Shown in pieces: positions 18,814 to 38,896 of a stretch of 64,000 bases of DNA; the stretch's first letter is position 1, and every line of letters begins with the position of its first letter. The stretch comes from Bacteroidota bacterium. Its GTDB lineage: Bacteria; Bacteroidota; Bacteroidia; Chitinophagales; LD1. The notes under the pieces were generated by a model that searched no databases, had not been told where the DNA came from, and was given only the letters and a program-made list of their open reading frames with translations. Location: contig JAFDYQ010000006.1 of assembly GCA_018267365.1 (NCBI GenBank), positions 62,001-126,000 of the forward strand, given 5' to 3'. Made by a program: the position numbers and the translations under genes.

Positions 18814-18836
18814 GTATTGTCTAATGTCTCAAGTCT
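18814..18836. repeat. 23-bp repeat, copy 1 (3' of second isomerase gene)
   Basis: Positions 18814-18836 are identical to 19953-19975. Both copies lie just beyond the stop codon of a cyclophilin-FKBP gene. The sequence itself is made of heptamer units (CTAATGT, CTCAAGT). Confidence 0.85.
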
Positions 18837-18837
18837 C

Positions 18838-19914
18838 TTATTTCACTCCCAGCATCTCTACCTCAAATACGAGGTCGGCCTTAGGGGGGATCACGCCGCC
18901 TGCACCACGATCACCGTAGGCCAGGTAGTATGGTATGATCAGTTTACCCTTGCTGCCTACGTTGAAGAGGCCAAAACCTTCATCCCAGCCTGCTATGACG
19001 CGGTGCTGGCCGAGAGGAAACTCAAACGGCTGACCACGATCTACAGAAGAGTCAAACTTCTTACCATCTTCAAACAGGGTACCTGTGTAGTGCGCTACTA
19101 CAGTCTGGCCCGGCTGTGCCTTAGGGCCTGTGCCTTGCGTCTCTATGGTATAGTAGAGGCCTGAGGCCGTTTTGATAGCGGTAGGGTACTTGGCTTTCAC
19201 CTTGGCGTCCCAGGCTGCCTGCTCTGCTTTACGCTGCGCTTCTTCTTTCTTTTTCAGGTTTTCCTCACCGTCTACAAATGCCTTGACTGCGTCAAAGTTT
19301 TTAGCAGCCTTGCCCACGCGTACGATACGTACGGTGCGCATAGTGTCATTTTGTGCGATAGCATTGACCACAGACTGGCCTAGTACCACGTGGCCAAAGA
19401 TAGTGTGCTTGTCGTTCAGCCATGGGGTAGCCACGTGCGTGATAAAAAACTGTGAGCCATTGGTGCCCGGACCGGCGTTAGCCATAGAGAGTACACCGGG
19501 ACCGGAGTGGCGCAGGGAGGCATCAAACTCATCAGGGAATTTGTAGCCCGGATCGCCCATACCGCTACCCATCGGGTCGCCGCCTTGTATCATAAAATTA
19601 GGGATGACACGGTGAAATTTCAGGCCATCGTAGAATGGCTCACCTTTGCGCACATTGGTCTTAGGGTTCTTGCCCTCTACCAGCGAGACAAAGTTGCCTA
19701 CCGTCATAGGTACTTTGGTATACTCCAGCTGGCATACGATCTTGCCTTTATTGGTATTGAATACGGCATAGAGGCCATCTGTTTTTTCCCAGTTAGGATT
19801 TTCTGCGGCAGCAGGAGCAGCAGCTGGTTTAGCAGCGCCTGCCTGTGCAAAGGCACCTGTAGTACTCAGCAGCGTGGCTACAGCCAGCAGGCCAGTCTTG
19901 ATCGTTCTTATCAT
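18838..19914 (-). CDS. Cyclophilin-FKBP fusion peptidyl-prolyl isomerase, exported paralogue
   Basis: 358 residues with a cleavable signal peptide (MIRTIKTGLLAVATLLSTTGAFAQ) and an Ala/Pro-rich linker, so it is expected in the periplasm. The cyclophilin domain (~45-205) has FHRVIPNFMIQGGD and [16 protein letters not shown] strongly charged helix (EENLKKKEEAQRKAEQAAW) leads to the FKBP domain (~250-358: [39 protein letters not shown]). All core active-site residues of both folds appear intact. Nearest relatives are the flanking paralogues at 17146 and 20008. Likely a folding factor for exported or outer-membrane proteins, by inference from location. Confidence 0.95.
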   Translation of the reverse strand: MIRTIKTGLLAVATLLSTTGAFAQAGAAKPAAAPAAAENPNWEKTDGLYAVFNTNKGKIVCQLEYTKVPMTVGNFVSLVEGKNPKTNVRKGEPFYDGLKFHRVIPNFMIQGGDPMGSGMGDPGYKFPDEFDASLRHSGPGVLSMANAGPGTNGSQFFITHVATPWLNDKHTIFGHVVLGQSVVNAIAQNDTMRTVRIVRVGKAAKNFDAVKAFVDGEENLKKKEEAQRKAEQAAWDAKVKAKYPTAIKTASGLYYTIETQGTGPKAQPGQTVVAHYTGTLFEDGKKFDSSVDRGQPFEFPLGQHRVIAGWDEGFGLFNVGSKGKLIIPYYLAYGDRGAGGVIPPKADLVFEVEMLGVK

Positions 19915-19952: not shown

Positions 19953-20007
19953 GTATTGTCTAATGTCTCAAGTCTAGTGCCTGCCTGCCGGTAGGCAGGT
20001 CTCGTGT
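19953..20007. repeat. Heptamer tract with embedded 20-bp palindrome; contains 23-bp repeat copy 2
   Basis: Units of seven bases beginning CT run at 19960, 19967 and 19974 (CTAATGT, CTCAAGT, CTAGTGC) and again at 20001 (CTCGTGT). Between them, 19980-19999 reads CCTGCCTGCCGGTAGGCAGG, an imperfect palindrome found identically at 30986-31005. Positions 19953-19975 repeat 18814-18836. At copy 1 the corresponding site has no palindrome, so the palindrome looks like an insertion into the heptamer tract. The element ends exactly at the stop codon of the third isomerase gene. Confidence 0.85.
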
Positions 20008-21180
20008 CTATTTCACTCCGATCATCTGCACGTCAAACACGAGGTCGGCGCGTGCAGGTATCACCGGCGGTGAACCCTGGTCACCGTAGCCGAGATAGAA
20101 TGGTATGATCAGTTTGCCCTTAGACCCTACAGGAAAGTAGCCAAAGCCCTCATCCCAGCCGTCTATGACCTGATGGCCACCGAGCGTAAATTCAAACGGA
20201 TTGCCACGATCCAGAGAGGAGTCAAATTTTTTGCCATCCCACAGTGTACCCGTATAGTGGGCTACTACGATCTGTCCGGGTTTTGCCTTAGGGCCGGTGC
20301 CGGGTGTAGTGATCAGATAGTACAGGCCGGATGCAGTGCGCCTGGCGCCCGGATATTTTGCTTTCACTTTGGCATCCCACTGCGGGTAGGTGGCCGCCAT
20401 CTGGGCTACCTGCGCCTGATGCTGTTTGATAGCAGCCTGCATTTTTGCATCCCTTTCTTTTTTCTGGTCTTCTATGATCTTTGCGCATTCAGCCATCTTC
20501 TTATTGAATGTAGCTACCGCATCCCAAGCCTCGGCATCTTTTCCTACGCGTACGATAGTGACAGAGTCCATTTTGTCTCCCACGGTAGTCGCGTTTACCA
20601 CCTTCATGCCTGACACTACATAGCCAAATACATTGTATTTGCCATCCAGCATCGGTGTTGGCTGCTTGGTGATGTAGATCTGGCTGCCGTTTGTATTAGG
20701 ACCGGCATTGGCCATAGCCAGTGTACCGGCACGGTTGTGTGTGAGGGTCGGGTCTACCTCATTGATAAACTCATAGCCCGGACCACCACGACCTGTGCCC
20801 TCCGGATCACCGCCTTGTATCACAAAGTCAGGCTCTACACGGTGCCAGGTCAGCCCATTGAAATATGGCTTACCCTTGCGGAAATTCGTTTTAGGATTGG
20901 TGCCCTCCGCCAGTGTCACAAAGTTGGCCACGGTCAGTGGGGCTTTAGTGTACTCCAGCTTGCAGACTATCTGTCCCTTCGCATTGCTAAAGACAGCATA
21001 GATACCATCCTCACTGCGCCAGTTGGCATCGTCCTGAGATACCGGTGCAGGTGCTGCAGGAGTAGTATCTACGGGTAGTGTCTGCTGCGCCTCATCAGCC
21101 GGTTTGTTGTTATTGCACGATGAGAAGAGCGCTGTCAGGGCGATCAGCAGCATCGGCACAGTTTGTTTCAGTTGCTTCAT
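20008..21180 (-). CDS. Cyclophilin-FKBP fusion peptidyl-prolyl isomerase, lipoprotein paralogue
   Basis: 390 residues. The N-terminus is a lipoprotein signal (MKQLKQTVPMLLIALTALFSSC, Cys at residue 22) followed by a Pro/Ala-rich tether. Residues ~55-215 are a cyclophilin domain with WHRVEPDFVIQGGD and MANAGPNTNGSQIYI; the usual Phe-Phe after SQ is Ile-Tyr here, a change in the proline pocket. A long charged helix (MAECAKIIEDQKKERDAKMQAAIKQHQ) is followed by the FKBP domain (~290-390: [38 protein letters not shown]). Expected to be anchored in the inner or outer membrane facing the periplasm. Third member of the local paralogue set. Confidence 0.95.
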   Translation of the reverse strand: MKQLKQTVPMLLIALTALFSSCNNNKPADEAQQTLPVDTTPAAPAPVSQDDANWRSEDGIYAVFSNAKGQIVCKLEYTKAPLTVANFVTLAEGTNPKTNFRKGKPYFNGLTWHRVEPDFVIQGGDPEGTGRGGPGYEFINEVDPTLTHNRAGTLAMANAGPNTNGSQIYITKQPTPMLDGKYNVFGYVVSGMKVVNATTVGDKMDSVTIVRVGKDAEAWDAVATFNKKMAECAKIIEDQKKERDAKMQAAIKQHQAQVAQMAATYPQWDAKVKAKYPGARRTASGLYYLITTPGTGPKAKPGQIVVAHYTGTLWDGKKFDSSLDRGNPFEFTLGGHQVIDGWDEGFGYFPVGSKGKLIIPFYLGYGDQGSPPVIPARADLVFDVQMIGVK

Positions 21181-22376: not shown

Positions 22377-24491
22377 ATGAGATTTTACCTCGCCGCTCTA
22401 TGCCTGGTACTAGCTATCAGGGTATCCGCACAAAACAATGTCGGCATCGGGATACCTAATCCTGATCGCTCCGCGATACTCGATATCACCTCCCGCGACA
22501 AAGGTCTGCTCATACCGCGCCTGCGTAGTATAGATCGCACGGGCATTGTAGCGCCTGCCACTGCACTACTGGTGTTTGATACTGACTCCGGCTGTTTCTT
22601 TTATTTCGCCGGTAGCTGGCAGTCATTGTGTCGTGGTGGTGCAGGCGCAGCCGGCGCTACAGGACCTGCCGGCGCACCGGGTACCGGTGTTTCGTCTATC
22701 GTGAATAACAACAACGGCACGCTGACTATCACCTACTCTGACGGCACTACTAGTACTATTTCTTCTGGCGGTACCACAGGTCCTACGGGTCCGACAGGTA
22801 CGGGCGTGACAGGTCCTACAGGCGTGGGCATCTCCTCTATAGTCAATAATGGCAGCGGTACTATCACGATCACCTATAGCGATGGTACTACAAGTACCAT
22901 TACCTCTGCCGGGACTACTGGCCCTACTGGCCCCACAGGTAGCAATGGCACAGGTGGTGGCGCTACCGGCCCCACCGGGCCTACAGGAGCTACCGGGATA
23001 GCTGGTAGCACTGGCCCTACCGGCGCGGCTGGCTCCAGCGGAACAGGCGGTGGCGCTACGGGACCCACCGGGCCTACAGGAGCTACCGGGATAGCTGGTA
23101 GCACCGGCCCTACCGGCTCCACAGGTGGCAATGGCACCGGCGGTGGCGCTACAGGGCCTACCGGGCCTACTGGCGCTACCGGTATGGCTGGTAGCACCGG
23201 CCCTACCGGCGCAGCTGGCTCCAGTGGTACAGGCGGTGGCGCTACCGGACCCACAGGTGCGACAGGGGCTACAGGCATAGCTGGCAGCACCGGCCCTACC
23301 GGCCCTGCTGGCTCCAGTGGCATAGGCGGAGGCGCTACGGGACCCACAGGCCCTACAGGTGCTACAGGGATGGCTGGTAGCACTGGACCTACCGGCCCTG
23401 CCGGCTCCAGTGGCACAGGCGGAGGCACAGGACCTACCGGACCGACCGGAGCCACAGGTAGCACGGGGCCCGCAGGTGCAGGCACCACCGGGCCTACAGG
23501 GCCGTCAGGCAGTGGATCAGCAGGCGCTACGGGACCTACGGGGCCAGGTTCTATTTGCGCTACAGCGGTGACCAACCAAGTCGTAAAGTTCACCAGCAGC
23601 TCTGCGATCTGCAACTCGATCATTTATGATAACGGCACCAATGTGGGTATTTCGCAGACCAGTCCCACAGCTAAGCTGGACATCAATCAGACCGGCACCG
23701 CCAGAGCCCTATACGCTACACAAAACAATACAACAGATGTCGCCCGATTTGTGCAAAATGGTACGGGTACCGGCGTATATGCCTCCACACCTGTCAATGG
23801 TGGCATTCCAATAGCGGCGGCCGGTCAGGGCCTTGCCCCCTTTACTACGGTATCACTCACACTCACAGCACCGGGCATAAATATTTCCACCAACTATCAG
23901 CCGGGCACAGGTATTTCTACCATAGGCAGAGGACATGGTATCATATCCATAGGCAAGGATGACGTGGGAAGCTATGACCACGATGGAGGTTTTTTTGCCG
24001 TGGCACAGCCAAGCTCCAATACAGGTATAGCGATATCCAGTGTGGCTGCTCTGATCAATAATACCGTCTATAAGATCGTAGGCATCGGTATCGTATCTAC
24101 TATAGTGAAGGATACCTTAGAAAAGGCTGTGGCCATGGCCTGCCCTGAAGCGCCCGAACCATTGTTTCAAGATCTGGGCACAGGGCGGCTCAAAAATGGT
24201 TTTTGCCATGTCACACTCGACCCGATATTATCCAAAAACATAATAGTAGACGAGAGGCATCCCATCAAAGTATTCGTGCAGGTAGAGGATATGTGCTATG
24301 GTGTTTGCGTGAAAAATAAGAGCGCCTACGGATTTGATGTCTACGAGCTCAATGGCGGCAGGTCTGATACGCCGTTCTCCTGGTACGTCAGTGCCAATAG
24401 GTCCAATACGGAGATCAACGGCTTCACCTCTGACTATGAGTCCTTCCGCTTTCGACAGCTCGGCACGAGTAGCTTCGGAGGTTTGAAATAG
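22377..24491 (+). CDS. Secreted collagen-like (Gly-Pro-Thr) repeat surface protein
   Basis: 704 residues with a signal peptide ([19 protein letters not shown]). A short N-terminal domain ([23 protein letters not shown]) typical of Bacteroidota fibre-like proteins is followed by two copies of a [24 protein letters not shown] module and then about 180 residues of Gly-X-Y repeats rich in GPT and GAT. Five of these units are 31 residues long and nearly identical (22953-23417). The C-terminal ~300 residues hold a beta-rich domain ending in [20 protein letters not shown] and [10 protein letters not shown]. Gly-X-Thr collagen-like stalks are glycosylated in other bacteria; here that is inference. 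No T9SS tail is seen. A second, differently built member lies at 34325. Confidence 0.88.
22953..23417 (+). repeat. Five tandem 93-bp coding repeats in the collagen-like gene
   Basis: Units start at 22953, 23046, 23139, 23232 and 23325, each 93 bp (31 codons beginning Gly-Gly-Gly-Ala-Thr-Gly), followed by a partial unit. They differ at few positions (Ile/Met, Ala-Ala/Pro-Ala, Ser-Ser-Gly/Gly-Asn-Gly). Near-identity at DNA level indicates recent duplication or ongoing recombination. Not a CRISPR array: there are no spacers and the reading frame is continuous. Confidence 0.9.
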
Positions 24492-30977: not shown

Positions 30978-31017
30978 GAAAAGGACCTGCCTGCCGGTAG
31001 GCAGGGTTTGCCTTTTC
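30978..31017 (+). repeat. Dispersed palindrome inside the tRNA-Trp leader
   Basis: CCTGCCTGCCGGTAGGCAGG at 30986-31005 is identical to 19980-19999. It is enclosed by a second inverted repeat, GAAAAGG (30978-30984) with CCTTTTC (31011-31017), so the transcript leader can fold into one long two-part hairpin ending about 10 bases before the tRNA. Confidence 0.8.
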
Positions 31018-31027
31018 GGTAGTATTT

Positions 31028-31098
31028 ACGGGAATAGTTCAATGGTAGAATAGAGGTCTCCAAAACCTTTGATCAGGGTTCGAATCCTTGTTCCCGTG
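31028..31098 (+). tRNA. tRNA-Trp (anticodon CCA)
   Basis: The acceptor stem ACGGGAA pairs with TTCCCGT (31091-31097), discriminator G at 31098. The anticodon loop CTCCAAA gives anticodon CCA, closed by GAGGT / ACCTT. The T arm contains GTTCGAATC. The 3' CCA is not encoded. It precedes secE, the usual place for tRNA-Trp in bacteria. Confidence 0.97.
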
Positions 31099-31154
31099 CA
31101 CCTTTTAAAAAATCACTCGGCCAGCCTCTCGCGGCCGCCAATAAAATTGGGAAG

Positions 31155-38842: not shown

Positions 38843-38896
38843 GGTATTTAGTAGTTAGCCTGCCTACCGGCAGGTAGGTATTAAGTATTTAGATGA
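38843..38896. repeat. Heptamer tract with embedded palindrome, second example
   Basis: 7-base units GGTATTT and AGTAGTT (38843, 38850) precede, and AGGTATT, AAGTATT and TAGATGA (38876, 38883, 38890) follow, the palindrome CCTGCCTACCGGCAGGTAGG (38859-38878). Read on the other strand this palindrome differs at one base from the copies at 19980 and 30986. It lies between the M42 stop and its terminator. Confidence 0.8.

Follow-up and report, generated by a model that had tools for sequence, protein, structure and literature searches.

The 20-bp near-perfect palindrome CCTGCCTGCCGGTAGGCAGG, here called P and located at positions 19980-19999 of the window (the whole 64,000-nucleotide stretch that was analyzed, C66:62001-126000 of genome G000), is likely a very small non-coding element, mobile now or in the past, that forms a hairpin and is inserted precisely, with neither duplication nor deletion of the target site. 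In size, it seems to rank among the smallest mobile DNA elements on record. As RNA, P gave a hairpin of 8 pairs and a 4-nt loop, with a folding energy of -11.8 kcal/mol. P was present in 8 exact copies in the source genome (G000, 4.6 Mb); distinct sites at ≤1 mismatch numbered 29, up to 3 mismatches on both strands gave 98 matches, and the reversed-pattern control gave 0. The preliminary description had argued that the combination of heptamer repeats and palindrome was not chance, and this holds for P itself, with 29 sites at ≤1 mismatch against 0 for the control. Long open frames contained 8 of the 29 copies, as compared with 262 of 300 random positions, indicating that P is mostly intergenic. 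The features of the window that bear on P are listed in Table 1.

Table 1. Window features associated with P and with the heptamer tracts.
Feature	Position	Strand	Description
Heptamer tract without P	18814..18836	+	Behind the neighboring paralogue
Neighboring paralogue	18838..19914	-	Signal-peptide-like start, judged from sequence
Host tract, left part	19959..19979	+	TCTAATG TCTCAAG TCTAGTG; type ACTTGAG ACATTAG in the sense orientation of the gene
P copy	19980..19999	+	CCTGCCTGCCGGTAGGCAGG
Host tract, right part	20000..20013	+	TCTCGTG TCTATTT; phase kept once P is removed; continues into the stop codon of the gene on the minus strand
Gene with the tract in its 3' flank	20008..21180	-	Predicted cyclophilin and FKBP-like peptidyl-prolyl isomerase with lipoprotein-like signal; named from sequence
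P copy, exact	30986..31005	+	Empty orthologous site GAAAAGGA^GTTTGCC in four relatives
tRNA-Trp (cca)	31028..31099	+	Anchors the orthologous empty site; 22 bp beyond the P copy
Second host tract, left part	38845..38858	+	TATTTAG TAGTTAG
P variant copy	38859..38878	-	CCTACCTGCCGGTAGGCAGG on the minus strand
Second host tract, right part	38879..38892	+	TATTAAG TATTTAG; phase kept once P is removed

Filled and empty sites

The exact copy of P at 30986, which the preliminary description had overlooked, could be compared with the orthologous tRNA-Trp spacer of four genomes of the same genus (G001, G004, G005, and G006). In all four, the tRNA-Trp was unchanged and P was absent: the relatives read ...AAAAGGA^GTTTG(C/T)CTTTTC..., and the window reads ...AAAAGGA, then P, then GTTTGCCTTTTC.... 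The filled and empty sites differed by exactly 20 bp, i.e., P, and the target was neither duplicated nor lost. Since the four relatives are all empty and identical at the junction, an insertion in the lineage of the window is more economical than repeated deletion. Another copy, at C22:78908, was common to G000 and G005 at the orthologous place, and so insertions differ in age and some of them are old.

At 19980, P was found inside GTCTnnn heptamers, window positions 19955-20013 reading ATTG TCTAATG TCTCAAG TCTAGTG CCTGCCTGCCGGTAGGCAGG TCTCGTG TCTATTT. The unit starts given previously (19960, 19967, 19974, and 20001) are these heptamers in the CTnnnGT register; because 20001 minus 20 equals 19974 plus 7, the 7-bp phase is intact once P is cut out, and the reported interruption of a heptamer tract by a 20-bp palindrome was borne out. 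The tract behind the neighboring paralogue, previously taken as the empty site, matched the left part of the 19980 host tract over 23 bp without a difference and had no P. At the orthologous locus, the tract of G004 was unbroken, of the same unit type, and counted one extra unit relative to the window tract minus P, and those of G001 and G005 were unbroken tracts of a different unit type, again with P absent. These three tracts are consistent with an empty site, though none is exact, because the heptamer tract itself changes fast. The earlier claim of an insertion caught against an empty site stands as regards insertion, owing mainly to the site at 30986 that is exactly empty in four relatives; the tracts of the relatives at 19980 agree with it without being exact. 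The suggested comparison of orthologous loci yielded the exact pair at 30986 and none at 19980; the other P sites tested for an orthologous empty state were rearranged or devoid of the tract.

The second composite, at 38843-38892, has P within a TATTTAG-type tract, also in phase, and its heptamer is unlike the GTCTnnn of 19980. The entire tract was absent from the relatives at this locus. Elsewhere in the window, a gene at 22377-24491 has GPTG repeats of collagen-like character, arranged as tandem units of 93 bp.

Targets and distribution of P

As judged from the flanks of its copies, P was found in GTCTnnn heptamers (2 in G000), TATTTAG heptamers, GTTGAAC heptamers, and 8-bp TTnGCGnC repeats; it also split the inverted repeats CCCCTTTGGG^GATTTAGGGG, CTCCCTTCAGGGAG^GTTTGGAGGG, and GATGCCGAAG^GCAGATGGG, and further targets were the AACATTTGCGA^GAGAAAT element, the loop of a hairpin resembling a terminator (L196), and spacers with no repeat. 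Across the P copies, it was the removal of 19-22 bp that best brought back the 7/8-bp phase. The proposal that heptamer and palindrome form one element type was not supported by these data: when the flanks were scored for 7-bp periodicity, most copies lacked it. In a phylum-wide set of 67 non-redundant sites, 8 junctions were periodic, as compared with 3.0% of control positions (p = 9e-4). In addition, the two composites of the window differ in their heptamer, and the kinds of target are many. As targets of P, heptamer tracts show a modest enrichment, but they are not its partner. The base before P was a purine in 90% of the 67 sites and the base after it was T or G in 81%, which amounts to a weak target rule, RAR^K. 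A perfect hairpin around the junction was slightly enriched (4/67 vs. 1.8%, p = 0.035), and a folding test of hairpin-loop targeting gave no excess.

In most of the target families counted, the empty members were more numerous than the filled: the ratios stood at 10:1 for IR1, 8:0 for IR2, 11:1 for IR3, and 40:2 for TAGTTAG; the exception was GTTGAAC, with one empty and three filled members, the latter being local near copies. Some composites have spread as larger units, such as three near-identical copies at C33 and the IR1 trio. On a contig of G003 (L190), a P copy lay within another P-like 20-mer and is apparently a nested insertion. At four loci of other genera (L295, L298, L299, and L301), P was located within tRNA gene fragments, those of tRNA-Leu among them, and intact tRNA genes were present at three of these loci. 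The interruption of tRNA genes by P was considered and rejected, as the tRNA pieces are fragments and removal of P gives no tRNA.

The AACATTTGCGA^GAGAAAT junction was compared in 11 copies from G000 and G005 (L314 and C7 of G005): four were empty, four contained 20-nt variants of P, and three contained other palindromes of 18-22 nt (CCTGCCTGCCGGCAAAGGCAGG, CCTGCCCGCCGAGGCGGG, and CCTGTCCGCCGGGGCGGA) that have little in common with P beyond a CCTG start. Either the slot was filled repeatedly, or the inserted hairpin alters while remaining palindromic. It is conceivable, and we put it forward with some doubt, that P is a member of a class of 18-22-nt palindromes found throughout the phylum, and that an undescribed reaction inserts these palindromes at fixed junctions, perhaps also exchanging them, and leaves the target unduplicated.

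The form CCTGCCTnnnnnnAGGCAGG was detected in 46 of 296 sampled Bacteroidota genomes, with a patchy distribution, up to 25 occurrences, and a center that was often GCCGGY; the reversed control was found in eight. Within one genus, the copy number of P ranged from 0 to about 29. In G046, P occurred repeatedly within the larger repeat GAGCACCAGCGAGG^AATCTC, and one region of this genome (L303, G046:C2:1199001-1219000) had eight copies of P clustered within larger repeats, GTCATTCCGAGCACCAGCGAGG^AATC. Viral contigs contained P in 41 stretches, among which host DNA is possibly included.

The heptamer tracts themselves were also beyond chance, with 16-48 tracts of three GTCTnnn units per genome in the genus against 0-3 for the control. 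When read on the sense strand as AGACnnn in G000 and G005, 24 of 29 tracts followed closely on the end of a gene of the same strand, in most cases at no more than 12 nt, and they are thus oriented 3'-flank features; they often finish in ACAATACA. In the relatives (L086/L169, L088/L170, and L087/L171), the tract behind the isomerase gene holds its place and phase while the unit type switches between ACnnKAG and TAnTKAG. Selection of the heptamer units for stop codons was rejected, since 81% of them carry one, a proportion equal to that of column shuffles or expected from base composition. STRR are the heptamer repeats of cyanobacteria. Like the host tract, STRR and the TAACTGA direct repeats (PMC4679880), the latter placed mostly before start codons, are intergenic runs of 7-bp units beside genes; the host tract differs from both in its AC nnn AG unit with three variable bases and in its fixed orientation just behind stop codons.

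Possible routes of movement and rival readings

In the mechanism that we favor, the heptamer tract that follows the isomerase gene would have been there first and would have received P by precise insertion. P may move as a folded single strand, and an enzyme provided in trans could join the folded DNA into a nick or into a gap on the lagging strand; we regard this single-stranded DNA route as plausible, if a little below an even chance. P would be tolerated in heptamer tracts and inverted repeats, or would prefer them, since these do not code and readily unpair. Neither a product of excision nor an intermediate was found for P, and no enzyme dedicated to it. Movement through an RNA copy, in which the hairpin is transcribed, joined to the target, and reverse transcribed, is reportedly a type of route suggested for cyanobacterial SDRs (small dispersed repeats). 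It would agree with the stable RNA hairpin of P, with its presence in tRNA gene fragments at the four loci mentioned above, and with its mostly intergenic location, where it could be transcribed; however, a near-symmetric P carries little strand information, and we find this route unlikely.

The natural suspect for the moving enzyme would be a RAYT, a Y1 tyrosine transposase associated with REPs, in which case P would be a REP mobilized in the gamma-proteobacterial style. REP and REPIN sequences with their RAYTs are, like P, short extragenic palindromes of patchy copy number, and their mobility has been proposed to depend on Y1 transposases (PMC3733652, PMC3116915). The 20-bp extragenic palindrome and its insertion without target duplication are as expected for Y1 enzymes, and 11 Y1_Tnp matches were found in G000; Y1_Tnp was also present in 35 of 40 relatives, a distribution that is uninformative because nearly all of them have it. 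On the other hand, P (at ≤4 mismatches) was absent around all 11 Y1_Tnp genes, in flanks of up to 1.5 kb, and three of the five Y1 genes examined (L076, L077, and L078) were flanked on both sides by unrelated palindromes of their own. Moreover, the unpaired GTAG or CGTC end tag that defines the two REP superfamilies (PMC3733652) is missing from the ends of P, no flanking transposase gene was found, P occurs mostly as singlets and not as inverted doublets, no fixed target tetranucleotide was found at its sites, and G005 carries P yet has a single Y1 match. Taken with these observations, a RAYT origin of P seems quite improbable. The palindromes of the three Y1 genes are CCCGGACT/AGTCCGGG, GTTCAAGCG/CGCTTGAAC, and GTTCGTAGTC/GACTACGAAC, and from their sequence these genes are possible local REP systems. 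P also lacks the target-site duplication of a DDE-transposase MITE, as the filled and empty sites differ by exactly 20 bp.

Two further readings dispense with mobility of P itself. P could be ancestral in the repeats and precisely deleted in the relatives, or could have spread solely inside bigger repeats by recombination; the near copies among the composites (the C33 and IR1 trios) speak for this, but P is found in many unrelated families and in unique spacers, the same perfect empty site is common to four relatives, and the ends of P have no direct repeats for slippage, so that we give this reading very little credence. It is even harder to sustain that P is an immobile, conserved functional hairpin (a terminator, an mRNA stabilizer, or a protein site) in an incidental heptamer setting. 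The strong hairpin and the intergenic bias of P would suit such a role; nevertheless, its sites, with one exception, are not common to the relatives, its copy number varies widely inside one genus, and no T run follows P, which is thus not an intrinsic terminator.

P compared with small dispersed repeats

The SDR elements of Nostoc and its relatives are reportedly mobile, hairpin-forming sequences of 21-27 nt, said to lie often inside heptamer or larger repeats and to be sometimes nested. We know of no enzyme dedicated to SDRs and, to our knowledge, how a gene-less sequence of 20 bp moves has been a question since they were described. Set against this description, P probably belongs with the very small mobile palindromes of an SDR-like kind. 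It resembles those of Nostoc in being a hairpin of about 20 nt, in its dispersal (20 bp at 29 sites, as in a dispersed multicopy repeat of 20-30 nt), in its clean insertion, seen in one exact filled/empty orthologous pair, in being embedded in heptamer or larger repeats, and in nesting. It differs from them in belonging to another phylum, in being a nearly perfect palindrome, and in having near-identical copies in distant Bacteroidota families, and its sequence is, we presume, unrelated to theirs. The SDR work (Elhai et al. 2008, Genome Res 18:1484) is cited by PMC4390886, PMC3116915, and PMC2884548. In the literature searched, no Bacteroidota precedent for P was found, which is weak evidence of its novelty in this phylum.

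Sites both filled and empty, together with a weak target rule and the occurrence in a second phylum, make the movement of a gene-less 20-bp sequence a testable question, and a comparison of P-rich genomes with close relatives that have few copies offers a screen for candidate enzymes. The variation of intergenic DNA in Bacteroidota is explained in part by P, and short palindromes in the spacers of these bacteria need not be regulatory.
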